Below are positions 28,987 to 43,724 of a DNA stretch of 57,149 nucleotides, piece by piece. This stretch comes from Cryomorphaceae bacterium. GTDB lineage: Bacteria > Bacteroidota > Bacteroidia > Flavobacteriales > Schleiferiaceae. Position 1 is the first letter of the stretch; every line of letters starts with the position of its first letter. The translations under genes were made by a program, and so were the position numbers. The notes under the pieces are model-generated. The model had not been told where the DNA came from, ran no database searches, and saw only the letters and a list, made by a program, of their open reading frames with translations. The DNA lies in contig WTIZ01000041.1 of the NCBI GenBank assembly GCA_011525035.1, positions 54,849 to 111,997 of the forward strand, read 5' to 3'.

Positions 28987-31485
28987 ATGCAAATACGCAG
29001 ATATTTTCTACTTGTTGCTGCTATGATCGCCATGCCTATGGCAATGGTAGCGCAAGATGCCGACATCGAGGATGTTGAGATTGAAATTCACAAGACCACT
29101 AAAAAGGCCGACGAATACTTTGAGTCAAAGGAGTATAGCACAGCTGTAGAGGTATACGCTAAAGCCTATTCTAAGGAGAAAAGCCGCGAGCAAAAGCAGC
29201 GCATCTCCTACAATATGGCGGAATGTTACCGCAATACAGGGCAGTTCAAGAGAGCGGCCAGCTATTACCTGCGTGCCCAGAAATTGGGTTATGGTGCGTT
29301 GGCAGGTCTAGGCTATGCCGAAATGCTACAAAGTCAAGGCGAGTACGAAGATGCTATTGTAGCCTTCGAAGAGTATAAGAAGCTCATCCCGTCCGATCCG
29401 CGTGCTGAAGAAGGTATTCAGGCATGTCGTCAAGCGGCTACATGGGTTGAATCAGGTTCATTGTTCTCGTTAGACAATGCGAAAGATTTAAATTCTAAGA
29501 AATCAGATTATGCCATTGCTTACGCTGGTAAGCGCGGTAAAGAAGACCTTACCCTGATGGTAAGTTCCATGAGAGATAATTCAACAGGGAAAAAAGAAGA
29601 CGGCTGGACAGGTCAGCGTTTTTCTGACATCTACGTGATTGAAGGGCAAAAGAAAAAAGGCAAGCGCAAGAAAGGAAAAGAGGCAAATGCAAACGATGAA
29701 ATTGTTTGGGGAGAACTCGAATCCATCGGCGAAGTAATCAATACGAAAGACCACGAAGGGGTACTTACTTTCGACTCGAGGGGTAAGACCATGTACTTCA
29801 CCAAGTGTATCAAGCTTAAGAATGTAAAAATGGGTTGTGCCATCTACTCTACGAAGAAAGTAGGGCAGGATTGGGCAAATCCAGAGCCGGTTGTGATTGC
29901 AGTAGATTCTAATGCTTCTGTAGGTCACCCTGCGCTAAGCCCTGATGATAACATCTTGTACTTTGCAGGTGAGCTAAGCGGCGGTAAAGGCGGTAGAGAC
30001 ATTTACATGACGACTTACGACAGACGACGTCGCGAGTGGAAAGAACCAACTTCATTGAGCATCAATACACGCGGAGATGAGCTGTATCCGTATATCCACG
30101 GAGACGGTTACTTGTATTTCTCGTCAAACGGTCGCCCAGGTATGGGTGGGTTTGATTGTTACCGTGTAAAATTGGACGATCTAGGACAGCCAATTGGGGA
30201 TGTAGAAAACATGTTAAGCCCAATTAACTCTGAGGGTGATGATATCGCATTGCGTTGGATTCCTGGTGATAACACACAAAGAGGATTTGTGGTGTCTAAC
30301 CGTAAAGGAACGCGCGGTGAGCACGATATCTGGTACGTTACAGAGTGGACCAAACAGTTCGTTGTTTCAGGTACTGTTGTGAGTACCAAAAATGGCAAGC
30401 CTGTAAAAGACGTGACCATTGAAGTAAGCGATAAAAAAGGCGGTTCATTCACAATTACAACCGATGCCAACGGTAACTTCGGAATTCCAAAGGGACGTCT
30501 TGAAGAAGATATGTCGTACAAATTGAACATGTCTCGTAAGAAATTCTTGAACGCTATTGGTGACATCAGTACAGAGGATCTTGCATTGACGGATTACTCA
30601 AGAGTCAAGGAAGACAGAGAGTATGTTAAGACGTACAACCTCACTTTAAAAATGGATCCGATTGAAGTTCCTATCGTACTTCCTAACGTATTCTTCGATC
30701 TTGCTAAATCTGACCTACGCGACGAAAGTAAAGTAGCGCTAGATACGGTATTCAATATCCTACAACGCAACCCGAACATTACTATTGGTCTACGTTCACA
30801 TACGGATTACCGTGATACAGACGCTAAGAACCAGGTGCTTTCTCAGGCACGTGCTCAGAGCTGTGTGGATTACCTCATAGAAAAGGGCATCCCTGCAGAT
30901 CGTTTAACTGCTGTAGGTATGGGTGAAGGTGAGCCTTTCACTATTCCTAACGGATACGCAGGTTACGGAGCAGATAAATTCAAAGAAGGCGACAAGCTTA
31001 CAGAAAGCTTTATCAAAAGATTAGGCGGTGACGATCAAGAGGTGGCTAACCAGATCAACCGTCGTACGGATTTCAAGGTGCTTTCAGATGATTATGTACC
31101 TTCTGCACCAGTTGCTACTGTTGATGGTGAGCCAGCATTGGCACCAGCCAAGAAGAACGAGAATCCAATCGGTCAAACTATTACTCTAGGCCCTAAGGAC
31201 CGCTCACTCGGTAAAATTGCCATGGAGAACGGTATGAACGTGGTAGAGTTGAAGAAATTGAACGCTGGGTTGCGTGGTGCGCGTCCAATGCCAGGAATGG
31301 TGCTCAAGATCACTAAGAATGGTGATTACACAGAGTTTGACGCAACACACTACCAAGTACAACGTGGCGACCAACTTCGCTCTATTGCTAAGAAGGTTGG
31401 TTCAGATGTGAAGACATTGAAATCGTTGAACGGTATTAAGAATGATTCAGAGTTAATCATTGGATCTTGGATCCAAACGAAGTAG
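28987..31485 (+). CDS. PorE-like OmpA-family protein with TPR, PD40 propeller and LysM repeats
   Basis: An 832-residue exported protein with a signal peptide cut near AQ (21-22). Order of parts: TPR helices (about 37-150), a PD40/WD40-like propeller (about 180-440), a carboxypeptidase regulatory-like beta domain (about 455-520), an OmpA peptidoglycan-binding domain (about 555-705, with RSHTDYRDTDAKN and LSQARAQS), and two LysM-like units (about 735-780 and 785-832, the second beginning HYQVQRGDQLRSIAKKVG). The first four parts match PorE, a T9SS component that anchors to peptidoglycan. LysM repeats are not part of classical PorE. It has its own terminator and no operon partners. Confidence 0.82.
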   Translation: MQIRRYFLLVAAMIAMPMAMVAQDADIEDVEIEIHKTTKKADEYFESKEYSTAVEVYAKAYSKEKSREQKQRISYNMAECYRNTGQFKRAASYYLRAQKLGYGALAGLGYAEMLQSQGEYEDAIVAFEEYKKLIPSDPRAEEGIQACRQAATWVESGSLFSLDNAKDLNSKKSDYAIAYAGKRGKEDLTLMVSSMRDNSTGKKEDGWTGQRFSDIYVIEGQKKKGKRKKGKEANANDEIVWGELESIGEVINTKDHEGVLTFDSRGKTMYFTKCIKLKNVKMGCAIYSTKKVGQDWANPEPVVIAVDSNASVGHPALSPDDNILYFAGELSGGKGGRDIYMTTYDRRRREWKEPTSLSINTRGDELYPYIHGDGYLYFSSNGRPGMGGFDCYRVKLDDLGQPIGDVENMLSPINSEGDDIALRWIPGDNTQRGFVVSNRKGTRGEHDIWYVTEWTKQFVVSGTVVSTKNGKPVKDVTIEVSDKKGGSFTITTDANGNFGIPKGRLEEDMSYKLNMSRKKFLNAIGDISTEDLALTDYSRVKEDREYVKTYNLTLKMDPIEVPIVLPNVFFDLAKSDLRDESKVALDTVFNILQRNPNITIGLRSHTDYRDTDAKNQVLSQARAQSCVDYLIEKGIPADRLTAVGMGEGEPFTIPNGYAGYGADKFKEGDKLTESFIKRLGGDDQEVANQINRRTDFKVLSDDYVPSAPVATVDGEPALAPAKKNENPIGQTITLGPKDRSLGKIAMENGMNVVELKKLNAGLRGARPMPGMVLKITKNGDYTEFDATHYQVQRGDQLRSIAKKVGSDVKTLKSLNGIKNDSELIIGSWIQTK

Positions 31486-31505
31486 ATAACTCCTTGATAA
31501 AAGAG

Positions 31506-31536
31506 AAGCGCGCACGGGTCTCCCGTGCGCGCTTTC
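31506..31536 (+). terminator. Hairpin terminator behind the PorE-like gene
   Basis: A perfect 13-bp GC-rich stem AAGCGCGCACGGG/CCCGTGCGCGCTT with a TCT loop; the T-run after it is short (TTTC), so termination may be incomplete. Confidence 0.7.
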
Positions 31537-31540
31537 TCGT

Positions 31541-31548
31541 TATTTTTG
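31541..31548 (+). promoter_or_regulatory. Candidate -7 box for the purM operon
   Basis: TATTTTTG followed by C ends eight bases before the purM ATG at 31556, so the expected leader is only about 3-4 bases. Confidence 0.5.
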
Positions 31549-31555
31549 CAGCACT

Positions 31556-32731
31556 ATGAGTAACAATTCAGACCGCTACACCGGCAGAGGTGTGAGTGCA
31601 CAGAAAGAAGATGTGCACAATGCCATAAAGAACATTGACAAGGGACTTTTTCCGAAGGCCTTCTGTAAAATTGTACCGGACTACCTAACCGGTGATTCAG
31701 ACTACTGTCTGGTGATGCATGCCGACGGTGCAGGAACGAAGAGTTCTTTGGCCTACATGTACTGGAAGGAGACCGGTGACCTTAGTGTATGGAAGGGCAT
31801 TGCTCAGGATGCGTTGATCATGAACATCGACGATCTTCTGTGTGTCGGTGCTACGGAGAACATCATGCTCAGTTCTACCATTGGAAGAAACAAAGGGTTA
31901 ATCACTGGCGAGGTATTGAGCGCGATTATCGGTGGAACCGAGGAGCTTCTAGAAGAATACCGTAAGCACGGCATTGATATTATCAGCACTGGTGGTGAAA
32001 CTGCCGACGTTGGTGATTTGGTGCGCACAATAATCGTAGATAGTACTGTGGTTGCGCGTATGAAGCGTTCGGACGTTGTAGATAACGCGAACATAAAAGC
32101 CGGCAATGTCATCGTTGGTTTGGCGAGCTACGGCCAGGCAGCTTATGAGAGCGAATACAACGGCGGTATGGGGTCTAACGGACTTACAAGTGCGCGTCAC
32201 GATGTGTTCTCAAAAGAATTGGCAACAAAATACCCGGAAAGCTTCGATCCAGCAGTACCCGAGAATTTGGTGTACACCGGAACAAAAAGCCTAACAGAGC
32301 CAACAGAAACAGATCTTGATGCTGGAAAACTAGTATTAAGCCCAACTCGCACGTATGCACCAATCATAAAACAAATCTTGGACAAATACCGCGGTCAGAT
32401 TGACGGTATGGTACACTGTTCTGGGGGTGCACAAACGAAGATTTTACATTTCTTGGAAAAGGGACATGTGATCAAAGACAACTTGTTCCCAATACCTCCA
32501 TTGTTTGAATTGATTCACCAGGAGAGTGGTACCAGTTGGGAAGAAATGTACCAAGTATTCAACATGGGACACCGAATGGAGCTTTATGTAGATCCAGCGA
32601 TTGCTGAAGATATCATTGCAATCAGTGAGAGCTTTGGAGTAGCAGCACAGATCGTAGGGCGCGTTGAAGAGAGCGCAGCAAAAGAGCTGACTATAACGAG
32701 TGAGTTCGGAACCTTTAAATACAGCAAGTAA
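31556..32731 (+). CDS. purM: Phosphoribosylformylglycinamidine cyclo-ligase (AIR synthase)
   Basis: A 391-residue ATP-dependent enzyme that closes the imidazole ring to make aminoimidazole ribotide in purine synthesis. The ATP/Mg2+ motif HADGAGTKS is near 55-63, [11 protein letters not shown] forms the conserved dimer/active-site strand, and [12 protein letters not shown] is present. It is longer than the E. coli enzyme (about 345 residues), as in other Bacteroidota. Its TAA stop shares one base with the prfA ATG, showing translational coupling in a purM-prfA-pyrF operon. Confidence 0.93.
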
Positions 32732-33807
32732 TGCTAGATAAGCTCAACGTAGTCTTTCAGCGTTACAATGAGGTGAATGATCTCATTATTCAACCGGATG
32801 TGATTTCCGACAGCAAGCGCTATGTGAAATTGAACCGTGAATACAAAAACCTTAAGCCCCTGGTCGACGCCAGAGAGAAGTACCTCGAATTAAGTAGCAG
32901 AATAGAGGAGGCGAAAACGGTTTTAAAAGAAGAGAAAGACCAGGATTTCCGAGACATGGCCAAAATGGAGCTCGATGAGATCGAGCCTGCGTTCGCCGAG
33001 CTTGAGGAGGAAATCAAAATCTTACTGATACCCAAAGATCCTGAGGACGATAAGAATGCATTAGTTGAAATTCGCCAAGGTGCGGGTGGTGACGAAGGTG
33101 CCATTTTCGCCGGTGATTTATTCCGTATGTACCAACGATACTGTGAAGGCCGCGGTTGGAAGGTTGAGGTGATTTCTATGAACGAAGGAACCGCCGGAGG
33201 CTTTAAAGAAGTTTCTTTTGAGGTGAACGGTGAATCGGTTTACGGAATTCTAAAATACGAGAGCGGGGTACACCGCGTACAGCGCGTTCCAGCCACGGAA
33301 AGCCAGGGTAGGGTGCACACCTCTGCAGCATCTGTAGTCGTTCTTCCTGAAGCGGAAGATGTAGATGTCGATCTTGATATGAAAGATGTCAAAAAAGACA
33401 CCTATCGCGCTCAGGGTGCTGGAGGTCAGCACGTCAACAAAACTGAAAGTGCAGTGCGTTTGACGCATTTACCGACAGGAATTGTGGTAGAGTGTCAAGA
33501 TGGACGATCACAGCACAAGAACTACGAGCAAGCTTTGAAGGTGCTTCGTTCGCGCATGTTTGACATGGAGTTCAAGAAAAAGCAAGCAGAACAGGCTGCA
33601 AAGCGTAAGACCATGGTAAGTACTGGTGACCGTTCCGCGAAAATTAGAACTTACAACTATCCACAAGGAAGGGTAACTGACCACAGGATAGGTTTGACGA
33701 CCTACAATCTTAATGATGTCGTAGGTGGTGATATTCAGAAGTTTATTGACGAACTTCACATGGCGGAGAATGCCGAGAAGATGAAAGAAGGAACAGATAT
33801 CATTTAA
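32731..33807 (+). CDS. prfA: Peptide chain release factor 1
   Basis: A 358-residue class I release factor for UAA and UAG. The stop-codon-reading tripeptide PAT is at 187-189 (in [14 protein letters not shown]) and the universal GGQ that triggers peptide release is at 231-233 ([12 protein letters not shown]). Full length. It overlaps purM by one base and ends one base before pyrF. Confidence 0.97.
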
Positions 33808-33808
33808 G

Positions 33809-34624
33809 ATGAATAGACAAGCACTCATAGCTCAGATAGAAAAAAAGAAAAGTGTACTCTGCGTCGGACTAGACACGGATATCAATAAGATTCCAGAGCA
33901 TTTATTGAGTGAATCTGATCCAATATTCGCCTTCAACAAAGCCATCATTGATGCTACGGCGGACTTCGCAGTGGCTTACAAGCCTAACATTGCCTTTTAC
34001 GAAAGCATGGGAGTGAAGGGTTGGGAATCCTTAGGCAAAACCATTGCTTACCTAAACGAGAGCTATCCGGAAGTTTTTACCATCGCTGATGCTAAGCGCG
34101 GCGATATCGGCAATACTTCAAAGATGTATGCTGAAGCTTTCTTCAATGCCATGGCCTTTGATAGCGTTACCGTAGCTCCTTATATGGGTGTGGACAGTGT
34201 CAGCCCTTTTCTAGCCTTCGAAGACAAATGGGTTATCCTTTTGGCATTGACATCCAATCAAGGTGCATTTGATTTTCAGTTAACTGAAAACACGGATGGC
34301 GAAGCATTATTCGAAACTGTTGTTAAAAAGGCACAAGAGTGGGCGACCCCAGAGCAACTTATGTTTGTTCTAGGAGCTACCAAAACAGAATTCTTAGAGC
34401 GCGTAAGGAAGGCTGCTCCTGATTCTTTCTTCTTGGTGCCGGGTGTAGGTGCGCAAGGCGGATCACTAGAGGATGTACTTACTAAGGCGACCAATAAAGA
34501 CTACGGCGTCCTGGTAAATTCTACCCGAGGCATTATTTATCAAAGCAAAGACAGAGATTTCGCTGAAGCTGCACGAGGTGCTGCGCTTGAGTTGCAGCAG
34601 GAAATGCAACGAATTCTCTTCTAG
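33809..34624 (+). CDS. pyrF: Orotidine 5'-phosphate decarboxylase
   Basis: A 271-residue enzyme that makes UMP from OMP, the last step of de novo pyrimidine synthesis. It belongs to the longer PyrF subgroup: [13 protein letters not shown] near the N terminus, the catalytic DAKRGD (D94, K96, D99), and a C-terminal VPGVGAQGG phosphate-binding loop. It starts one base after the prfA stop, as the last gene of the operon. Confidence 0.95.
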
Positions 34625-34687
34625 TGTGCGCTGAGTCACACCTTGTCCAATAGAACATGGCTAGTTTAGAGGAATCAAAACACAGTC

Positions 34688-35488
34688 ATGGAGATAATAG
34701 GTTACATCGCATCGGTATTTATAGGGATTTCACTCGGCTTGATTGGCGGTGGTGGTTCTATCCTTACTGTACCGGTTTTAGTTTACCTCTTTGGGGAAAG
34801 TGCGGAGCTTAGTACCGCATATTCGTTATTCATTGTTGGCACGACTGCATTGGTAGGTGGAATTCGCAATGCCACTATGGGTAATGTGAATTACAAGACA
34901 GCAGTAGTATTTACAATCCCGGCATTTATTGCGGTGTATTTAACCCGTGCTTACCTAGTTCCAGCCATACCTCAAAACATCCTTACAGTAGGTGCTTTCA
35001 CGTTGACGAAAGACATTGCCATCATGGTCTTTTTTGCTTTGGTAATGCTTGCAGCTTCAGTGAGTATGATTCGCGACAAACGTGAGGAAGAGGATGAAGA
35101 AGGTGAAACTGCGCCAGTATTTAATGTACCGGCAATTGTTGCAGAAGGTGCAGTAGTAGGTGTATTAACGGGTATTGTTGGCGCCGGTGGTGGGTTTTTA
35201 ATTATTCCTGCGCTCGTGCTCTTTGCCAAATTGCCTATGAAAAAGGCAGTCGGTACCTCATTGTTGATTATCGCTGCAAAGAGTTTAATAGGTTTTATTG
35301 GTGATGTTCAACGTCCCGATTTAATTATTGATTGGACATTGCTGTTGACCGTGACAGCAATTGCCGTAGCAGGTATCTTTGTAGGTATCTATGCGACCAA
35401 ATTTATAGACGGTAAAAAATTGAAAAAGGGCTTCGGCTGGTTTGTACTCGTTATGGCAGTATACATCATCTTGAAGCAGATAGTATAA
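34688..35488 (+). CDS. TauE/SafE-family anion exporter
   Basis: A 266-residue membrane protein with about eight helices in two repeats; each repeat opens with a glycine-rich motif (GISLGLIGGGGSILTVPVL and GVLTGIVGAGGGFLIIPALV). Members move sulfite, sulfoacetate or related organosulfur anions. A charged loop KREEEDEEGE lies mid-protein. First gene of the sulfur block, 28 bases before the CstB-like gene. TauE-like genes also accompany cstB in the staphylococcal sulfide-response operon, which supports sulfite export here, but the substrate is inferred. Confidence 0.88.
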   Translation: MEIIGYIASVFIGISLGLIGGGGSILTVPVLVYLFGESAELSTAYSLFIVGTTALVGGIRNATMGNVNYKTAVVFTIPAFIAVYLTRAYLVPAIPQNILTVGAFTLTKDIAIMVFFALVMLAASVSMIRDKREEEDEEGETAPVFNVPAIVAEGAVVGVLTGIVGAGGGFLIIPALVLFAKLPMKKAVGTSLLIIAAKSLIGFIGDVQRPDLIIDWTLLLTVTAIAVAGIFVGIYATKFIDGKKLKKGFGWFVLVMAVYIILKQIV

Positions 35489-35516
35489 TAGCATAAGAAC
35501 TTCTAATTACACAGAA

Positions 35517-36917
35517 ATGATTGTAGAACAGATTTACACAGGGTGTTTGGCGCAAGGCGCTTACTATATAGCCTCTAAAGGTGAAGCAGTAGTTATTGAT
35601 CCATTGCGTGAGGTTGGTCCATATTTGGATCGTGCAGAAAAAGATGGTGTTACCATCAAATACATCTTGGAAACTCATTTCCATGCAGATTTTGTTTCTG
35701 GCCACCTAGACTTAGCGAAGAAAACGGGCGCTACGATTATCTACGGACCGAACGCTAATCCGAAATTTGATTGCAAGATTGCAGAGGATGGAGAAGTGTT
35801 GAAAGTAGGCGATGTTGAAATCCACGTGCTTCACACGCCAGGTCATACGATGGAGAGTACCACGTATTTATTGAAAGACGAGAGTGGTAAAGACCATGCA
35901 ATTTTCTCTGGCGATACCCTTTTCTTGGGAGATGTAGGTCGCCCAGATTTGGCACAGAAGGCGGCTACTATGACGCAAGAGCAATTAGCAGCAACGCTCT
36001 ACAACTCTCTTCGTACAAAAATCATGGTGCTTGCAGATGACGTGATTGTATATCCGGGTCACGGAGCTGGTTCGTCGTGTGGAAAGAACATGTCGAAAGA
36101 AACCGTGGGAACTATCGGTGAGCAGAAGGCAACAAACTATGCATTGCGTGCAGATATGACCGAGGAAGAGTTTATCAAGGAAGTGACAGACGGTTTGCAA
36201 AAACCACCGGCCTACTTCCCGGAAAACGTACGCTTGAATAAAGTGGGATACGAAAGCTTAGATACAGTAATGGACCGTGCGATGACGCCAATGAGTGCTG
36301 AGGCCTTCGAAGCTGCTGCTAATGAAACAGATGCCTTGATTCTTGATACACGTCACCAAAGCGAATTCATTCATGGCTTCATCCCTCAATCCATCTTTAT
36401 TGGTATTAAGGGAAGTTTTGCAATGTGGGTAGGAGCGATGATTCCTGATATCAATCAAAAGCTTCTTGTTGTTGCAGATCCTGGTATGGAAGAAGAAGTT
36501 TTAACTCGACTTTCACGTGTAGGCTATGATCAAACGATTGGCTACCTCGAAGGTGGATTTGACGCTTGGAAGAATGCTGGAAAAGAAGTCGATACTCTTG
36601 AGCAAATCACTGCTGAAGGATTAAAAGACGTACAGAGTCCAGTTGTGGTAGACGTGCGCAAAGACGGCGAATACTTGAGCGAGCACATGCCTACGGCTAT
36701 CCACGCCAGCCTAGAGTACATCAACGACCGTATGGGAGACATTCCAAGCGAAGGCACCTTCTACATTCACTGTGCAGGTGGCTACCGTTCAGTTATTGCA
36801 GCTTCTATTTTGAAAGCGCGTGGATTCCACAATATGGTAGATGTTGCTGGAGGTTTCGGTGCCATGAAAAAAGCAGGCATTGAGCTAACGGATTACGTAT
36901 GTCCTTCAACACTTTAA
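35517..36917 (+). CDS. CstB-like persulfide dioxygenase with pseudo-rhodanese and rhodanese domains
   Basis: A 466-residue three-part protein. The metallo-beta-lactamase domain (1-about 245) has a mononuclear iron set H54, H110 and D133, with HFHADFVSGH in place of the usual HxHxDH, as expected for persulfide dioxygenases. A first rhodanese-like domain (about 262-360) lacks the active cysteine: its loop reads VADPGMEEEV with D321. The second rhodanese (about 370-466) keeps C419 in CAGGYRS. This order matches CstB, which oxidises low-molecular-weight persulfide to sulfite and transfers sulfur to make thiosulfate. C188 in GSSCGKN may also take part. Cytoplasmic; middle of the sulfur operon. Confidence 0.88.
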   Translation: MIVEQIYTGCLAQGAYYIASKGEAVVIDPLREVGPYLDRAEKDGVTIKYILETHFHADFVSGHLDLAKKTGATIIYGPNANPKFDCKIAEDGEVLKVGDVEIHVLHTPGHTMESTTYLLKDESGKDHAIFSGDTLFLGDVGRPDLAQKAATMTQEQLAATLYNSLRTKIMVLADDVIVYPGHGAGSSCGKNMSKETVGTIGEQKATNYALRADMTEEEFIKEVTDGLQKPPAYFPENVRLNKVGYESLDTVMDRAMTPMSAEAFEAAANETDALILDTRHQSEFIHGFIPQSIFIGIKGSFAMWVGAMIPDINQKLLVVADPGMEEEVLTRLSRVGYDQTIGYLEGGFDAWKNAGKEVDTLEQITAEGLKDVQSPVVVDVRKDGEYLSEHMPTAIHASLEYINDRMGDIPSEGTFYIHCAGGYRSVIAASILKARGFHNMVDVAGGFGAMKKAGIELTDYVCPSTL

Positions 36918-36943
36918 TCGAATAACACTTAGATAACAGAACT

Positions 36944-37501
36944 ATGGATTTAATCATGCAACCTTGGCCATGGTACATAAGTGGGGCGCTTATCGCCTTG
37001 ATTATGTTTATCATGCTCTTTTTCGGAAAGAGTTTTGGCTTCTCGAGTAACCTGCGCACCCTCTGTACGCTTTGCGGTGCAGATCGCTTCGTGCCTTTCT
37101 TCCAATTTGATTGGAAATCTAAAAGCTGGAACCTCTTTTTCTTAGTCGGAGCAGGTATTGGCGGATACATTGCAGCCAATTTCCTTTCTCCTGAAGACTA
37201 TACCGTAGCTATTTCTGAGAATACCATTGCAGATTTATCAGCACTGGGCTTTACAGATCCAGAAGGATTTGTACCGGCAAGCCAGTTTGGTACTGAGGCC
37301 CTAGGTGATGCAAAGAATATTGTAATCTTGGCGCTCGGTGGCTTAATGGTTGGTTTCGGAGCTCGTTATGCCGGAGGGTGTACATCGGGCCATGCAATTA
37401 GCGGTATTTCTAATCTTCAGCCGGCTTCATTGCTTGCTGTGGTAGGATTTTTCATTGGTGGGCTTCTTATGACTCACGTATTGTTCCCTCTTATTTACTA
37501 A
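36944..37501 (+). CDS. YeeE/YedE-family protein, first half-size subunit
   Basis: A 185-residue membrane protein with hydrophobic helices near 10-30, 60-80, 128-145 and 160-182. The family cysteine motif is present as GGCTSGHAISG in the C-terminal part, and an extra TLCTLCG lies near 39-45. YeeE/YedE members include the thiosulfate importer TsuA, in which such cysteines are thought to relay thiosulfate. TsuA is one long chain; here two shorter genes encode the parts. The partner begins 3 bases downstream. Substrate is inferred from neighbours. Confidence 0.85.
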   Translation: MDLIMQPWPWYISGALIALIMFIMLFFGKSFGFSSNLRTLCTLCGADRFVPFFQFDWKSKSWNLFFLVGAGIGGYIAANFLSPEDYTVAISENTIADLSALGFTDPEGFVPASQFGTEALGDAKNIVILALGGLMVGFGARYAGGCTSGHAISGISNLQPASLLAVVGFFIGGLLMTHVLFPLIY

Positions 37502-37504
37502 GCC

Positions 37505-37918
37505 ATGAAGAATATTAAATTTTTAATCGCGGGTACCTTATTTGGTATCATCATGTTCAAGAGCGAAGCAGCTTCTTGGTATAGAATTCAAGAAATGTTC
37601 AGATTCCAAGCATTTCACATGTACGGAATCATTGGATTGGCAGTAGCCCTAGGCGTTCCTATGGTAGCAATTATTAAAGCAAAGAAAATCAAGGATTATG
37701 CGGGTGGACAGATCGTGTTTACACCCAAAGCTTGGAGCATTCCTCGCTACTTGATTGGAGGAACTATTTTCGGTTTGGGCTGGGCGCTTAGTGGTGCTTG
37801 TCCGGGGCCAATTGTAGTAAATATCGGCGCCGGTTACTCTGGGTACGTAATAGTACTTCTTGGAGCCCTTGTAGGAACATTCCTCTACGGCGTCATTCGC
37901 GATAAATTGCCGCACTAA
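37505..37918 (+). CDS. YeeE/YedE-family protein, second half-size subunit (DUF6691 type)
   Basis: A 137-residue membrane protein with about four helices and the cysteine motif LSGACPGPIVVNIGAGYSG near 95-113. It complements the preceding half-size protein; the pair probably forms one transporter for thiosulfate or another reactive sulfur species. It starts 3 bases after its partner and ends 6 bases before the tsdA-like gene, so the three are clearly one transcript. Confidence 0.85.
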   Translation: MKNIKFLIAGTLFGIIMFKSEAASWYRIQEMFRFQAFHMYGIIGLAVALGVPMVAIIKAKKIKDYAGGQIVFTPKAWSIPRYLIGGTIFGLGWALSGACPGPIVVNIGAGYSGYVIVLLGALVGTFLYGVIRDKLPH

Positions 37919-37924
37919 ACCGGT

Positions 37925-38986
37925 ATGGAATTTTCAAATCTACCGAAGCACCGCAAGGAACAGCTGGCTCAGCTCACTACAGGAACGAGTCGGATTGTTC
38001 TCAGCCTTTTGATGGGTCTTTTTGGTGTAGGGTTGATTTGGAGTGTCGATAGCGCGCTTCCTCCAGCTCAAGAATTTCCTGAATATTCTCAGGTCTTACC
38101 CGATGTTCCTTGGGATTATAAGCTCTTTGAAGATGTAGATTATGCAAATCCTGCAACCACGGAACAAGTAGCTTACGGTCGAAGGCTCATTATGGAGACG
38201 GCAGACTACCTAGGCCCAAACTCAAGCAAACCCTTTGCTGGTAATAATTTAGATTGTAATTCTTGTCATTTGGACGGGGGGACTAAGCCGTTTGCCGCAC
38301 CTTTTGTCACCGTACCTAGTCAGTTTCCTCAATTCCGTAACCGTGAGAATAAAGAGGGGACCATACAGGAGCGTATCAATGGGTGTATGCAGCGTTCAAT
38401 GAATGGACGTCCCTTGCCAGAGGACTCTGAGGAGCTCGCGGCCATGGTCGCTTACATGGAGTGGCTGAGTTTGGACAAGCCTCGCGGAGAAAAAATCAAC
38501 GGCAACAAGTTCTTAAAGGTTAATTATCCAGACCGAGCGGTGGATCTAAAGCATGGCGAGAAAGTGTATGTGCAACATTGTACTACTTGCCATCAGTCAG
38601 ATGGTCAGGGCCAACGAAACCCAGGCAGCAACACCTATTTGTATCCTCCATTATGGGGACCGGATTCCTACAATCACGGGGCGGGTATGCACCGAGTGAT
38701 CACGGCGGCTCAGTTCATCAAAGGAAATATGCCTTTAGGAACCACAGCGGACGAACCACTGCTTTCAGATGAAGAAGCATATGATGTGGCGGGATACATC
38801 AACAGCTTTGCCCGTCCATTAAAGAATAATCCTGAAGCGGACTTTCCAAATAAGAAGCTCAAGCCAATGTCGACGCCTTATGGACCGTGGGTCGACCCGT
38901 TCCCAGCGGCGCAGCATAAATTTGGACCATTCGGTGAAATCGCTGCTTTTTACCAAAACGAATACGGTCTGAAGAAGTCCAAATAG
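37925..38986 (+). CDS. tsdA: Membrane-anchored diheme cytochrome c, TsdA-like thiosulfate dehydrogenase
   Basis: A 353-residue periplasmic c-type cytochrome held by one N-terminal helix (about 23-42). Two heme sites are present: C111-N-S-C114-H115 and C219-T-T-C222-H223. C154 in INGCMQRSMNG fits the unusual cysteine ligand of heme 1 in TsdA, and M269 in GNMPLG could serve heme 2. TsdA joins two thiosulfates to tetrathionate, or the reverse. The known enzyme is soluble or fused to a partner cytochrome; the anchor here suggests direct contact with a membrane electron acceptor. Last gene of the sulfur block. Confidence 0.85.
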   Translation: MEFSNLPKHRKEQLAQLTTGTSRIVLSLLMGLFGVGLIWSVDSALPPAQEFPEYSQVLPDVPWDYKLFEDVDYANPATTEQVAYGRRLIMETADYLGPNSSKPFAGNNLDCNSCHLDGGTKPFAAPFVTVPSQFPQFRNRENKEGTIQERINGCMQRSMNGRPLPEDSEELAAMVAYMEWLSLDKPRGEKINGNKFLKVNYPDRAVDLKHGEKVYVQHCTTCHQSDGQGQRNPGSNTYLYPPLWGPDSYNHGAGMHRVITAAQFIKGNMPLGTTADEPLLSDEEAYDVAGYINSFARPLKNNPEADFPNKKLKPMSTPYGPWVDPFPAAQHKFGPFGEIAAFYQNEYGLKKSK

Positions 38987-39069
38987 GGTTTGGATAACTC
39001 TTAGATTTGATGGATAAGTAATCGTTGAAGGCTTCCTTTTTTACGACAATTGCTCGTAACTTTCAATAG

Positions 39070-40089
39070 ATGAACAATCCCTTCCACAGCCTGAGAAAAG
39101 TACTCATTTTGTTCTCCTTCATATTGTTTGGAGGAACGCTGGGCTATAGATTAATTGAAGACCTTGATTGGCTTCCGGCCTTTTATATGGTGGTTCAGAC
39201 AGTGAGTACTGTGGGATTTAATGAGGTTACAGAATTAAGCACCTCAGGTACATGGTTCACCATTGTGCTAATCATTTCCAGCTTTGGAACCTTTGCCTAC
39301 GGCGCCGGTCTTTTGGCGCAGTTGGCCATTGATGGACGTGTTCGTCATTTTTTACTCACCAAAAGAATTGAACGCAAGGTGGAAAAGTTAGAAGGACATG
39401 CCATTGTATGTGGCTTAGGTAGGAACGGCCGACAGGTGGTGAGCAAACTTCGCGCATACGGAGCGGATGTTGTTGTAATTGAAAAGGATGAACACCGAGC
39501 TGAAGAGTTCAGAAATCAATTTCAAAAGGTCTTGGTCGTTGTTGGGGACGCCACTGACGACACCATTTTAGAAAAGGTAAACATTGCGAAGGCTTCTTCC
39601 TTAATTGCCGCATTGGCCTCAGATACTGACAATCTCTTTGTAGTGATCTCTGCACGTCAGCTCAACCCGAACATGACTATCGGTGCTCGAGCGAACACTG
39701 AGAGTACAGAACGCAAACTTCTGGCGGCTGGCGCCACATATACGGTTAGTCCAAACCTGGTAGGAGGGGCACACCTGGCGCATAACTTGATGAATCCTGG
39801 AGTGATGAATTTCTTGGATCACCTAAGTGTAGGTGGATCCTCTGCAACCAATATCGAAGAAATCGTAGTTGATGAATTGCCTGAAGTGTTTAGTGGATGC
39901 AACATCAAGGATTTAGAGATTAGGCAACAGACCGGATGTACTGTCATTGGTTACGTGTGTGAACAAGGATTACTTACCGTTAATCCGTCACCAGACTTTA
40001 AAGTCGCACCGCATTCCAAACTCTACGTGTTGGGAAATGATGAACAGATTAAAGACTTGAGGGCTTGGTTTACCGAAAAGACCAAATAA
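39070..40089 (+). CDS. Potassium channel with cytoplasmic RCK (TrkA-N/TrkA-C) domain
   Basis: A 339-residue two-helix channel: helices at about 10-28 and 61-85 flank a pore loop with the filter TVGFNE (48-53 region), instead of the common TVGYGD. An RCK domain follows, with a Rossmann NAD-binding motif GLGRNGRQV near 115, and a TrkA-C domain occupies the last 80 residues. Such channels let K+ pass under control of nucleotides or ions bound by the RCK ring. It stands alone between the sulfur block and the RmlD-like gene. Confidence 0.9.
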   Translation: MNNPFHSLRKVLILFSFILFGGTLGYRLIEDLDWLPAFYMVVQTVSTVGFNEVTELSTSGTWFTIVLIISSFGTFAYGAGLLAQLAIDGRVRHFLLTKRIERKVEKLEGHAIVCGLGRNGRQVVSKLRAYGADVVVIEKDEHRAEEFRNQFQKVLVVVGDATDDTILEKVNIAKASSLIAALASDTDNLFVVISARQLNPNMTIGARANTESTERKLLAAGATYTVSPNLVGGAHLAHNLMNPGVMNFLDHLSVGGSSATNIEEIVVDELPEVFSGCNIKDLEIRQQTGCTVIGYVCEQGLLTVNPSPDFKVAPHSKLYVLGNDEQIKDLRAWFTEKTK

Positions 40090-40114
40090 ATTCGCAATCA
40101 GCTAACCACATCAG

Positions 40115-41011
40115 ATGAAGATTCTCTACACTGGGTCAAACGGACTATTAGGTCAAAAAATTTCTGCAGCTACCGTAGGCTACAAGCAGCATTCTTTTTT
40201 AGCGACGGCTCGAGGCGAAAACCGTACTGTAAATCTCGGTGGCGCATCATATGCCGCCATGGATATTACAAATGCGGAGGCCGTAAACGCTGTGGTCAAA
40301 GATTTTCAACCTGATGTCATCATCCATGGTGCGGCCATGACGCATGTGGACCAGTGTGAGCAGAACAAAGAATTGGCTTACCAGCTTAATGTAATAGGGA
40401 CTAAAAACGTAGCGGAGGCGGCAAGAGAGGTGGGAGCTCACCTTGTGCATATTAGTACAGACTTCATTTTTGATGGTACAGAAGGGCCTTACGACGAACA
40501 GGGTATACCCAATCCATTGAGTTATTACGGAGAGACTAAACTTGAGGCGGAGAAGATTGTGCAAGCCTTGGACCATTGGAGCATCCTTCGTACTGTTTTA
40601 GTTATTGGTATGGCTGAAGATTTGAGCCGCAGTAATATTGTTCTGTGGGCAAAGGGCGCTCTTGAGAAGGGCCAGGCCATTAATGTCGTTGACGACCAAT
40701 TCCGTACACCCACCCTCGCCGAAGATCTTGCCCAAGGAGCTTTGTTGGCAGCCACGCAGAAAGCGCAAGGCATCTACAACATATCCGGTCCAGACTTCAT
40801 GTCTATTTACGAACTCGTTGGTCACGTTGCAGCGCACTTCGACCTCTCTATGGATGCTGTAACAAGGGTGGACAGCACGACCTTGAACCAACCGGCAAAA
40901 CGCCCTCCTAGAACCGGTTTTGACATCACGAAAGCGAAGACAGAACTCGGCTTTAAGCCACACACTTTTAGTGAAGCGCTAGCAGTTATTGCCGAGCAAG
41001 CAGGATTATAG
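40115..41011 (+). CDS. RmlD-like NAD(P)-dependent sugar reductase
   Basis: A 298-residue short-chain dehydrogenase of the RmlD substrate-binding family. The nucleotide loop GSNGLLG is at 7-13, the STDFIFDG strand at 115-122, and the catalytic pair Y138 and K142 lies in YYGETK. Relatives reduce dTDP-4-dehydrorhamnose, but other members act as methionine adenosyltransferase-like regulators or on other sugars. No rmlA, rmlB or rmlC gene is nearby, so a rhamnose role is not supported by context. It follows the channel gene by 25 bases. Confidence 0.85.
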   Translation: MKILYTGSNGLLGQKISAATVGYKQHSFLATARGENRTVNLGGASYAAMDITNAEAVNAVVKDFQPDVIIHGAAMTHVDQCEQNKELAYQLNVIGTKNVAEAAREVGAHLVHISTDFIFDGTEGPYDEQGIPNPLSYYGETKLEAEKIVQALDHWSILRTVLVIGMAEDLSRSNIVLWAKGALEKGQAINVVDDQFRTPTLAEDLAQGALLAATQKAQGIYNISGPDFMSIYELVGHVAAHFDLSMDAVTRVDSTTLNQPAKRPPRTGFDITKAKTELGFKPHTFSEALAVIAEQAGL

Positions 41012-41064
41012 CCCGCAATTTGCTCCTTGAGCTTCAATCGTTTATTTTCGGGCTTATTCTAAAC

Positions 41065-41078
41065 TAACCTTTAGGTTA
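41065..41078 (+). promoter_or_regulatory. Perfect inverted repeat directly before the NSS transporter gene
   Basis: TAACCT-TT-AGGTTA is a perfect 6-bp palindrome ending one base before the ATG at 41080. A weak -7-like TATTTTCG lies at 41043-41050. It could be an operator or a small start-site hairpin; no factor is known. Confidence 0.35.
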
Positions 41079-41079
41079 C

Positions 41080-42720
41080 ATGTCAAACACTACTGAATCT
41101 TGGGGTTCCCGCGTCGGACTCATTCTCGCTATGGCGGGTAATGCAGTTGGTCTAGGAAACTTCCTGCGTTTTCCTGTTCAAGCCGTACAAAATGGCGGCG
41201 GAACCTTTATCATCCCTTACCTCGTATCCTTTTTGCTCATGGGTATACCTCTTTTGTGGGTAGAGTGGGCGATGGGCCGATTCGGCGGTCGTTTCGGCGA
41301 TCATAGCACACCGTTCATTCTCGACAACATGACCAAGAAGCGTTTCTGGAAATACTTCGGTGTCTTCGGGATCTTCACCAACATGGGGGTGATGGCATAC
41401 TACACGTACATCGAATCATGGACGTTGACCTACACCTTAAAATCCCTCAAGGGCGATTTCCTAGGTATGGACCTCGACGGTTTGGACCAATTCTTCAACA
41501 ACTACGTTGACCTTGGCGCAGGCATCAACTTCCCAGTATGGGCATTGCTCGCCTTCCTAATTACCCTGTCTGTAAATATTTACATCCTTTCACGCGGCCT
41601 GAGTGCTGGTATTGAAAAAGTAGCGAAGATTGCCATGCCACTATTGATTGGCTTTGGTGCTTTCTTGGCCATCATGTCTTGGACTACTGGTTCTACGGGA
41701 CGTTGTGCCGATTGTTCTACCTACGTCGGTCTGAACTATTTATGGCAACCGGACTTTACAACGCTAGCAAATCCGAAAATTTGGCTTGCAGCAGCCGGTC
41801 AGATCTTCTTCACCCTTAGTGTGGGTATGGGTACCATTCACTGTTACAGCTCTTACTTGAAGCAGAAAGACGATATCGCCCTGAACGCAATGTCTGCAGG
41901 GTGGATGAATGGCTTTGTAGAAATCGTTTTGGGTTCTGCCGTAGTTATCCCAATCGCCGTAGGTTACCTAGGTTTGGATTGGGTTGTAGAAAATGCAGGC
42001 TTTATGATGGCTTTCAAAACGATGCCGTTCCTGTTTGATCAATGGGGCAGTGTCCTTGCTGTTATCGCAGGGGTAGCTTGGTTTGGTCTCCTATTCTTTG
42101 CAGGTATCACCTCTTCGCTTGCTATGGGTACGCCTTGGATGGGCTTTGTACAAGACGAATTCAATTGGTCGAAAAACAAGAGCGCGTTAATCTTAGGTAT
42201 TGCCATTTTAGCGATGGGCCTCCCGACCATCTTCTTCTTCGAAAAAGGTGTGTTCGACGAATACGACTACTGGACAGGAACAGTGAGTTTGGTGATTTTC
42301 GCCCTCGCTGAGGTTATCCTCTTCGCATGGGTATTCGGAATGGACAAGGGATGGAAAGAAATCACAGACGGCGCAGATATGACGGTTCCAAGATTCTACC
42401 GCCCGATTATCAAATACATCACACCACTATTTATTGGTATCATCTTCCTGACTTCGATGTTCAAGCCACTCAACGGTGAATTAAGCGATTGGTCTTCCGC
42501 CTTTACTTCGCTGTTCTCCGGGAACGGTTGGCCGTGGGCAAACGATAGTATCATCAACCAGATTTTCCACATCAACACGGGAGTACAGTGGATGCAGGAC
42601 GGTGTCCTCACCAATATGTTCTATATTGATATGAGCCGATTCTTCCTGCTCGCCTGCTTCTTCGCATTGGTTGGTATGGTGAAGGTGGCTTCTAACAAAC
42701 GTAAAAAAGCAGCACAATGA
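41080..42720 (+). CDS. Neurotransmitter:sodium symporter (NSS) family transporter
   Basis: A 546-residue transporter with a LeuT fold and about twelve helices. The first helix has the Na+/substrate-site sequence GNAVGLGNFLRFP, and later segments include ILSRGLSAGIEKVAKI and FAGITSSLAMGTPWMGF. Family members bring amino acids into the cell with Na+, which fits a cell that pumps Na+ with Na+-NQR. The stop overlaps the ATG of a tiny MetS-like partner (ATGA), resembling the methionine/alanine importers MetPS. The amino acid is unknown. Confidence 0.93.
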   Translation: MSNTTESWGSRVGLILAMAGNAVGLGNFLRFPVQAVQNGGGTFIIPYLVSFLLMGIPLLWVEWAMGRFGGRFGDHSTPFILDNMTKKRFWKYFGVFGIFTNMGVMAYYTYIESWTLTYTLKSLKGDFLGMDLDGLDQFFNNYVDLGAGINFPVWALLAFLITLSVNIYILSRGLSAGIEKVAKIAMPLLIGFGAFLAIMSWTTGSTGRCADCSTYVGLNYLWQPDFTTLANPKIWLAAAGQIFFTLSVGMGTIHCYSSYLKQKDDIALNAMSAGWMNGFVEIVLGSAVVIPIAVGYLGLDWVVENAGFMMAFKTMPFLFDQWGSVLAVIAGVAWFGLLFFAGITSSLAMGTPWMGFVQDEFNWSKNKSALILGIAILAMGLPTIFFFEKGVFDEYDYWTGTVSLVIFALAEVILFAWVFGMDKGWKEITDGADMTVPRFYRPIIKYITPLFIGIIFLTSMFKPLNGELSDWSSAFTSLFSGNGWPWANDSIINQIFHINTGVQWMQDGVLTNMFYIDMSRFFLLACFFALVGMVKVASNKRKKAAQ

Positions 42721-42854
42721 CAACCTCCGCATTAATCATGATCATTCTGACGCAGGGTACAGTTATCGCTGCGACGATTTACTTCTTTAGAAAAGTTTTA
42801 AAGGCACCGCAAAACGCCGAGCCAGATTCTTATTCGGACAACGATCCGAAATAG
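42717..42854 (+). CDS. MetS-like small subunit of the NSS transporter
   Basis: A 45-residue protein: MTTSALIMIILTQGTVIA begins a single membrane helix (about 4-24), followed by a short charged tail ending DNDPK. It overlaps the transporter stop by 4 bases (ATGA), a sign of coupled translation. Size, single helix and position match MetS, the small subunit of methionine/alanine NSS importers. It is short enough to be missed by most gene finders. Function as a subunit is inferred from position and family resemblance. Confidence 0.75.
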   Translation: MTTSALIMIILTQGTVIAATIYFFRKVLKAPQNAEPDSYSDNDPK

Positions 42855-42908
42855 AGGAAAACTTTTAGTTGCTCACAATAGTAGCTGCAACGTCTTCAGC
42901 CATCTAAA

Positions 42909-43724
42909 TTGGATAGGAAAGACAGTAGCCTTGTGAGAGAACAGCTTGAATTAACCGCAATTCTTATATGCATCGCCCTGGTCTCTGGGGCGATGTTTTT
43001 GTTTCCTGTAGAAAAGAGGATAGCAGAGCATCAGGCCTTTTTAGAGCTTTGGTGGTCGGCCAATGATTCCTTGCGAATCAATACAGTAGATTCAACACAT
43101 ATATACTCCATGCCTATCTCTGAGGCAACGAAGCGAAGTTTGTGGTTTCGAAGAAAGCGGAATTGGCCCTTCAAGGACCTTGAAGAATTGCACGCCGACC
43201 GTTACTTGAGGAAAGATAGTTTGTTCTTTACTCTCGGCACTGTCGATTTTTCTCTACCCACAGCAACTACCACCAGAGTCACAACGATTAAAGCACCCAT
43301 TAAAACATCGCCCCCGGATAGGCGGTGGACTGCCGTTGATGTCAACACCTGTGACTCTGCAGCTCTCGATGCTCTTCCTGGAATAGGCCCTGGAATGGTA
43401 GGTGTATTATTTCGCTATCGAACGCGCTACGGTTTCATCGCCGATATGGACCATTTTAAATCAAACACCTATTACGGCGAACGCTGGCGACAGGAGTGGG
43501 CGACGTTACTGACCGTAGACTCTATACCTCCTCCGAAACTTTCTTTAGAACATTCAACCTTTGAAGAGCTTATGGGCTTTCCAGAGCTGAATTACGCTCA
43601 GACCAAAAGAATCTGTTTCTACCGAGAGCGTTTTACAGTGCCTACTTGGAAAGAAATTGTGGAATGGGAAGAATTTTCCGGAGTAGACACAACTTTTTTG
43701 CAGTTATATATTTCCAGAAATTAA
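42909..43724 (+). CDS. Helix-hairpin-helix (ComEA-like) protein with N-terminal membrane anchor
   Basis: A 271-residue protein from a TTG start; a GTG at 42933 is the alternative. A membrane helix at about 16-33 is followed by a linker and at least two helix-hairpin-helix units: the first around DVNTCDSAALDALPGIGPGM (from about 143), the second around STFEELMGFPELNYAQTKRI (from about 217). ComEA proteins bind DNA outside the membrane during uptake, so a DNA-binding role is possible. No other competence genes are nearby. It lies just upstream of rpsU. Confidence 0.75.
   Translation: MDRKDSSLVREQLELTAILICIALVSGAMFLFPVEKRIAEHQAFLELWWSANDSLRINTVDSTHIYSMPISEATKRSLWFRRKRNWPFKDLEELHADRYLRKDSLFFTLGTVDFSLPTATTTRVTTIKAPIKTSPPDRRWTAVDVNTCDSAALDALPGIGPGMVGVLFRYRTRYGFIADMDHFKSNTYYGERWRQEWATLLTVDSIPPPKLSLEHSTFEELMGFPELNYAQTKRICFYRERFTVPTWKEIVEWEEFSGVDTTFLQLYISRN

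Follow-up and report, generated by a model that had tools for sequence, protein, structure and literature searches.

The stretch analysed here, 57,149 nucleotides of contig WTIZ01000041.1 from the marine-type genome of a Cryomorphaceae bacterium (family Schleiferiaceae) and hereafter called the window, carries five adjoining genes with predicted roles in sulfur metabolism: tauE, a cstB-type gene, the two halves of a split YeeE/YedE transporter (yeeA and yeeB) and tsdA. Comparison with related genomes showed that tauE-cstB is a stable core, and that yeeA-yeeB-tsdA is a cassette that is kept or lost together. In addition, a gene for a SoxB-like protein co-varies with the TsdA cassette even though the two are unlinked. 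We consider it fairly probable that the operon supplies one half, membrane-bound and cytoplasmic, of a module for the oxidation of thiosulfate and sulfane sulfur, of the Erythrobacter flavus type.

The five genes and their proteins

All five genes are on the + strand, in the order tauE (34688..35488, 266 amino acids, from the list of open reading frames (ORFs) and Pfam PF01925), the cstB-type gene (35517..36917, 466 amino acids, from the ORF list, Pfam and solved structures), yeeA (36944..37501, 185 amino acids, the PmpA/YedE-like first half of the split YeeE/YedE), yeeB (37505..37918, 137 amino acids, the PmpB/DUF6691-like second half) and tsdA (37925..38986, 353 amino acids, a diheme cytochrome c). 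The ORFs confirmed the gaps of 28, 26, 3 and 6 bases given in a preliminary description of the window, and the families named there (TauE, CstB-like, paired YeeE/YedE and TsdA) were borne out when the assignments were checked against Pfam, NCBIfam and solved structures. From the spacing a single transcript for the five genes is likely, as that description had also proposed. The operon start is probably in the 63-base gap between pyrF and tauE (34625..34687, + strand), with read-through from pyrF as a possibility; measured from match to match, the corresponding spacing is 67-68 bases in the 10 genus mates where both genes were seen. A sigma-70 promoter/terminator scan gave 8 sites versus 7.0 in shuffles, with a sigma-70 model that does not cover Bacteroidota promoters, and inspection by eye, the only kind made, recognised no CstR-like regulator among the ORFs at 31000-43000.

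TauE scored 144.9 bits with Pfam PF01925 (cut-off 32.6) and is plausibly a membrane exporter of the TauE/SafE family, for which sulfite export, as proposed earlier, is a plausible prediction. A second TauE/SafE protein is encoded outside the window, on contig 23 of the same genome (181534-182256). The CstB-type protein consists over its whole length of a metallo-β-lactamase (MBL) persulfide dioxygenase (PDO) domain followed by two rhodanese domains (Pfam Lactamase_B 55.8 bits; Rhodanese 84.1 bits, in two stretches), and it gave full-length matches to the solved structures 3tp9 and 3r2u (E 1.5e-68 and 3e-59); the NCBIfam Blh model reached 70.9 bits against a cut-off of 625. Cys188 (AGSSCGK) and Cys419 (HCAGGYRS) align with cysteines in 3r2u and 3tp9, and in the CstB family these sites, one behind the MBL motif and the other in the final rhodanese domain, are presumably the functional cysteines. 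We accept as the predicted reaction the step from persulfide to sulfite and thiosulfate that had been put forward for this protein. In the S. aureus work of Shen from 2015, CstB is said to form thiosulfate.

The two transporter proteins each match a part of one family profile. The best stretch of YeeA (Pfam Sulf_transp, 63.1 bits) covers profile positions 250-309 of 310, the C-terminal end, and YeeB (Sulf_transp 40.1 bits, DUF6691 38.9 bits) covers positions 10-103, in the N-terminal part. The halves were placed on this family profile and not on YedE1/E2 or PmpA/B sequences, and each has one candidate conserved cysteine, Cys146 in GGCTSGH of YeeA and Cys99 in GACPGP of YeeB. Full-length YeeE is matched in its two halves by PmpA and PmpB (PMC11582611). 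With split YedE1E2 pairs of two proteobacteria, E. coli imported zero-valent sulfur faster, and in one such pair both cysteines were needed and export was not helped; the fused YedE3 did not speed up this import, and fused YeeE/YedE3 proteins take up thiosulfate (PMC10812762). By analogy with the tested split pairs, YeeA-YeeB would import zero-valent sulfur, and the thiosulfate transport suggested in the preliminary description becomes less likely.

These transport data bear directly on a linear scheme in which CstB would form sulfite and thiosulfate, TauE would export the sulfite, the YeeE pair would move thiosulfate, and TsdA would convert it to tetrathionate as the end product, in the service of sulfide detoxification and electron gain. 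Such a scheme is compatible with all five families and can draw on the thiosulfate uptake of the fused YeeE/YedE3 form; a sulfide:quinone reductase (SQR) is encoded in the genome, and tauE-cstB survives the loss of the other genes, as expected of a detoxification core. However, import of zero-valent sulfur was a property of the tested split pairs and not of the fused form, and the pair examined for export gave none (PMC10812762).

TsdA matched Pfam Cytochrom_C (53.7 bits) and SoxA-TsdA_cyt-c (37.8 bits), and the best solved structure was the Allochromatium TsdA (4wqc, E 6e-51). The heme motifs C111xxC114H115 and C219xxC222H223 and the axial-ligand positions Cys154 and Met269 are invariant in 30/30 aligned TsdA rows, our own included. 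Cys154 aligns with the cysteine axial ligand of heme 1 in known TsdA proteins, which is Cys96 in A. vinosum and Cys138 in C. jejuni (PMC6879331). The protein has a single N-terminal hydrophobic helix, at about residues 20-43, and is probably anchored in the membrane with the hemes outside, in line with the membrane TsdA described before. Judged by its named matches (TsdA identity of 70-98%), the genome probably lies near metagenome-assembled genomes (MAGs) of Schleiferiaceae, and a plasmid search found relatives on 53 records, all with <60% identity.

The residue before Met269 is Asn268, and this Asn-Met pair is also present in all 30 aligned rows. The same heme 2 pocket is found in the tetrathionate reductase TsdA of Campylobacter, and Lys takes this place in Allochromatium (PMC6879331). 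TsdA is reversible, and the enzyme could here run as a tetrathionate reductase, the product of which, thiosulfate or sulfane sulfur, would be imported by the YeeE pair and then detoxified or assimilated; the pocket shared with C. jejuni TsdA, which acts as a reductase there, would suit this direction (PMC6879331, PMC5146829). Since Asn-Met is invariant in the alignment it may only mark the lineage, and the SoxB-like hydrolase described below fits tetrathionate as an intermediate instead. The PDO family consists of oxygen-using enzymes, and the presence of a member next to tsdA is a further point against the reductive direction. C. jejuni TsdA is, moreover, also a fast thiosulfate oxidiser in vitro (PMC5146829). 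Taken together, we regard a reductase role as improbable.

A core and a cassette within the genus

The genus sample comprised 24 other genomes, 11 of them TsdA-positive and 13 TsdA-negative. The order pyrF-tauE-cstB-yeeA-yeeB-tsdA was found in 10 of the 11 TsdA-positive genomes, with pyrF cut short in two, and in the eleventh the contig begins inside cstB. CstB was also present in 10 of the 13 TsdA-negative genomes, and in eight of these the assembly extends from cstB as far as the channel gene. None of these eight loci had an intact YeeA or YeeB, while TauE was present in all six where that side is assembled. Because tauE-cstB is kept without TsdA while yeeA, yeeB and tsdA go jointly, we distinguish a core and a cassette.

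Between cstB and the channel gene, three of the eight loci still held pieces of the cassette at E <= 0.002: a partial yeeA in one, most of a broken yeeB in another, and a 21-residue yeeB tail (E 0.002) in a third (L209:5449-5730, L211:5394-5456 and L215:1360-1726, L211 being the one with the tail). One further locus (L213) has a doubtful 12-residue tsdA tail (E 0.17), and in the other four no cassette remnant was found at E <= 1. Such remnants, of yeeA in one genome and of yeeB in two others, would point to more than one loss of the cassette. The eight TsdA-negative genomes are 58-92% complete and assembly gaps could mimic loss; eight joint misses by chance are unlikely.

The pattern of loss also allows us to weigh the view that the operon is a sulfide detoxification operon of the bigR/cst kind, made up of TauE, PDO and the YeeE pair, to which TsdA has been added as an unrelated passenger. 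There are precedents for the first part: a PDO-sulfurtransferase and TauE occur together in the bigR operon (PMC5823870), and in Agrobacterium YedE1E2 is found upstream of blh (PMC10812762). TsdA, for its part, often has no such genes nearby, as at 63 of the 80 named loci treated below. What we observed is the reverse of the passenger prediction, since loss or decay affects TsdA, YeeA and YeeB jointly and TauE-CstB stays, and the SoxB-like gene co-varies with the cassette in independent pairs. The joint-loss pattern therefore makes TsdA as a passenger very hard to credit.

The space between tsdA and the channel gene is about 1.4 kb in six of the ten TsdA-positive mates for which the sequence examined reaches the channel gene, and 83 bases in the window. 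At one such locus (L105:4967-6307), a 446-amino-acid protein encoded directly after tsdA groups with the OprD-like porins of other clusters, and porin matches occupy this place in four of six named loci, these being contigs of some of the same genomes. Such a porin might let the sulfur anion pass the outer membrane.

Partner genes outside the operon

In the window's own genome, the gene for a SoxB-like lipoprotein on contig 44 has the gene for a secreted DsrE-like protein 4 bases downstream (L101:8377-10486), and in the genus the DsrE-like gene adjoins the SoxB-like gene in 14/14 loci. For the SoxB-like protein the best NCBIfam model was SoxB (254 bits, below its cut-off of 550), followed by a nucleotidase model at 120, and the best solved structure was SoxB of T. 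thermophilus (E 1e-30). The SoxB model scored about 1.5-2.5 times the best nucleotidase model in our own protein and in the four cluster members scanned. These scores, together with the tracking of TsdA, make the reading as an ordinary nucleotidase somewhat less likely. The DsrE-like protein (139 amino acids, signal-like start) matches the profile of DsrE-like proteins encoded beside TsdA elsewhere (E 4.6e-6), and this profile matches MTH1491 and ST0148 in the PDB (E 3e-25 and 2e-21). The genome also encodes an SQR of Type II, mitochondrial type, on contig 46 (L090:1489-2745; E 7.6e-105 to SQR structures), again unlinked to the operon. Thus, the earlier statement that the window has no SQR or Sox gene holds for the window's contig, where Pyr_redox_2 and SoxB searches gave no match, but both genes are in the genome on other contigs (the search of the own genome for Sox proteins was for SoxB only). 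The SQR, and the SoxB-like/DsrE-like pair on another contig tracking the cassette, are new in the present analysis. In some other Bacteroidota, SQR matches were seen near TsdA or TauE (L103, L148, L149, L165, L171, L174).

To place these genes in a wider context we drew 247 Bacteroidia genomes (thresholds E <= 1e-10 for TsdA, E <= 1e-15 for YeeA, E <= 1e-60 for CstB and E <= 1e-100 for SoxB-like), of which 51 had TsdA, 98 YeeA and 209 CstB. Among the 31 genomes with a SoxB-like match 30 also had TsdA, as compared to 51/247 overall (Fisher p 9e-24, uncorrected for ancestry), and in the remaining one the neighbourhood is partly unreadable. Within the genus the SoxB-like gene was present in 10/11 TsdA-positive mates and in 0/8 of the resolved TsdA-negative ones (Fisher p 1.2e-4). 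In a tree of our own genome and 19 of the 24 relatives, built from four proteins of the flanks and the core, the TsdA state changes six times, and the SoxB-like gene follows in 6/6 independent pairs (sign test p 0.031, the smallest value possible with six pairs; G253 was set aside in this main pair test). The five relatives left out of the tree (G247, G248, G251, G266 and G270) are TsdA-negative with the cassette locus not assembled through, and four of the five have the SoxB-like gene. The tie of TsdA to the SoxB-like gene suggests tetrathionate as an intermediate, and the preliminary description, in which a linear route finishes with tetrathionate, appears less likely in this respect. Because it leaves this association unexplained we rank the linear scheme lower, as an unlikely account of the operon.

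Outside the own genome there were 53 TsdA matches, and we examined the surroundings of 52 of them (mean length 14.3 kb), leaving out a second TsdA piece in G216, a fragment. YeeA and YeeB were found beside TsdA in 27 of these regions, an OprD-like porin also in 27, a SoxB-like gene in 25, CstB and TauE in 22 each (counted at an identity of at least 50%), and a DsrE-like gene in 20. CstB accompanies TsdA far more often than by chance, in 22/52 regions versus about 0.3 expected if 1.5 CstB copies are placed anywhere in 3.7 Mb, both of these being round figures that were chosen and not measured. TauE, CstB, YeeA and YeeB were all on the strand of TsdA in 17/52 regions, 15 of which also had the SoxB-like gene; together with the 10/11 genus mates, this supports the conserved co-occurrence in Bacteroidota that the preliminary description had set as a check. 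Intervening genes or longer gaps are frequent in the Bacteroidia clusters, and only the window's genus showed the five genes in compact form. In Gillisia limnaea DSM 15749 (L172) TauE, TsdA, SoxB-like, DsrE-like, porin, YeeA, YeeB and a divergent CstB (34%) are encoded within 18.8 kb. Fulvivirga marina (L150) is another relative that has the module.

A proposed pathway and known systems

Knockouts in E. flavus gave the order of steps: TsdA forms tetrathionate from thiosulfate, SoxB then yields sulfate and zero-valent sulfur from tetrathionate, and dioxygenases act last (PMC7608252). From this precedent, that of YedE1E2 and the co-loss of the cassette genes, we propose the following pathway. 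The membrane-anchored TsdA, with its heme domain outside, would convert two thiosulfate to tetrathionate and pass the electrons to the respiratory chain. The SoxB-like lipoprotein and the secreted DsrE-like protein would then turn tetrathionate into sulfate and sulfane sulfur, with the sulfur carried onward, and the split YeeE pair would import the sulfane sulfur via its two cysteines. Inside, CstB, which would also be fed from sulfide by SQR, may oxidise persulfide to sulfite and join sulfite with persulfide to give thiosulfate. TauE would export sulfite, perhaps also thiosulfate, and thiosulfate could re-enter at TsdA. A bolder possibility, which we put forward tentatively, is that Bacteroidota have their own complete and cyclic thiosulfate oxidation, which would work without SoxYZ and come and go as one genomic unit even across two loci. 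In it, TsdA, the SoxB-like protein and a DsrE carrier would split thiosulfate into sulfate and sulfane sulfur at the surface, the YeeE pair would import the sulfane sulfur, and CstB would oxidise it to sulfite and remake thiosulfate.

Several observations weigh against the proposed pathway. Tetrathionate hydrolysis by SoxB in E. flavus rests on genetics (PMC7608252), and our SoxB-like protein, a member of the 5'-nucleotidase superfamily, scored 254 bits where the SoxB cut-off is 550 and is encoded on another contig than the operon. The TsdA family runs both ways, and the heme 2 pocket in our protein is Asn-Met as in Campylobacter, not Lys as in Allochromatium. A porin profile search of the own genome gave no match. 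The SoxB-like gene was found in 4/13 TsdA-negative genus mates, so that over all 24 the comparison is 10/11 versus 4/13 (Fisher p 0.0042); none of these four is assembled through the cassette locus, three having no CstB match and one a CstB cut by the contig end, and one of the SoxB-like, TsdA-negative genomes (G248) is 93% complete and a possible true exception. When G253, which has TsdA but no SoxB-like match and is 74% complete, is counted as lacking the gene, the gene follows in 5 to 6 of 6 pairs (p 0.031-0.0625). Finally, 20/52 regions had no TauE, CstB, YeeE pair or SoxB-like match at the thresholds used, and the same was true nearby (at most 9 kb on each side) for 63 of the 80 named loci with the TsdA most similar to that of the window. 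TsdA therefore has other settings in Bacteroidota.

Two such settings recurred. In Sphingobacterium and kin, a regulator that by eye looks like LysR precedes TsdA, and a DsrE-like gene and a conserved secreted-looking protein of 310 amino acids follow, with no CstB or YeeE pair nearby (L169, L183, L184, L185, L189, L190, L196, L199, L200, L203, L204, L207). A different arrangement was seen in Muricauda, Christiangramia, Winogradskyella and other Flavobacteriaceae: downstream of TsdA come a conserved protein of about 226 amino acids (Tat-like start by eye) and a DsrE-like gene, and these loci are without CstB (L135, L139, L140, L141, L145, L151, L155, L168). The latter setting may be a second TsdA system.

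The statement in the preliminary description that the operon could not be placed in a described system was too strong, since the tested pathway of E. flavus 21-3 is made up of TsdA, proteins of the SoxB family and a persulfide/sulfur dioxygenase (SdoA/SdoB) with rhodanese. Its genes form one cluster that thiosulfate up-regulates, and most genes typical of thiosulfate oxidation, such as the Sox complex, are not found in the E. flavus genome (PMC7608252). TsdA and PDO share one cluster in the window as well, and bacteria with both tsdA and soxB homologues are known to include Bacteroidetes (PMC7608252). The present system differs in its CstB-type dioxygenase (MBL and two rhodanese domains), in the split YeeE pair and TauE within the operon, in the DsrE-like gene beside the SoxB-like gene, and in the position of the latter on another contig in the own genome. 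A word search of the main text of PMC7608252, which leaves the gene arrangement of its Figure 3 aside, found no mention of DsrE, YeeE or a transporter. Outside Proteobacteria, only six YedE1 and two YedE2 strains were reported (PMC10812762), and the pair described here is from Bacteroidota. As in YedE1E2 and PmpAB, two short adjoining genes encode the YeeE halves, with one cysteine each and next to PDO (PMC10812762, PMC11582611), although the first half has 185 amino acids here and about 130 in PmpAB (PMC11582611). The bigR operon of Xylella and Agrobacterium (BigR, Blh, TauE) shares the combination of a persulfide dioxygenase-sulfurtransferase with a TauE-related sulfite transporter (PMC5823870). 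Blh is however DUF442-ETHE1 where our protein is CstB-type, TsdA is not named for the bigR operon in the text of PMC5823870 available to us, and no BigR was recognised by eye among the ORFs at 31000-43000.

Likeness to the cst operon lies in the domain order and cysteines of CstB, in TauE and in an SQR in the genome; in our case the SQR is unlinked, the YeeE pair and TsdA are added, and no CstR or CstA was recognised by eye beside the operon. In Staphylococcus aureus this operon comprises CstR, TauE, CstA, CstB and SQR. PDO has been reported in Bacteroidota MAGs of marine sediment (PMC12345210), and the text of PMC12694420 available to us makes no link between Schleiferiaceae and tsdA. Among the listings and passages that our searches of the open-access literature brought up, with subscription papers, figures and supplements outside the scope, we found no description of the Bacteroidota cluster, its YeeE pair or the co-loss. 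The pathway type and the presence of tsdA and soxB in Bacteroidetes are already in print, and the cluster with the YeeE pair and the co-loss would be new.

Flavobacteriales are abundant aquatic heterotrophs that are seldom counted as sulfur oxidisers. Our results suggest that heterotrophic Bacteroidota would carry a little-noticed sulfur-oxidising module, which would tie the split YeeE importer to a pathway and is carried by type strains such as Gillisia limnaea DSM 15749. The cassette with its SoxB-like/DsrE-like partner may serve as a marker by which oxidation of thiosulfate and zero-valent sulfur could be read from Flavobacteriales genomes.

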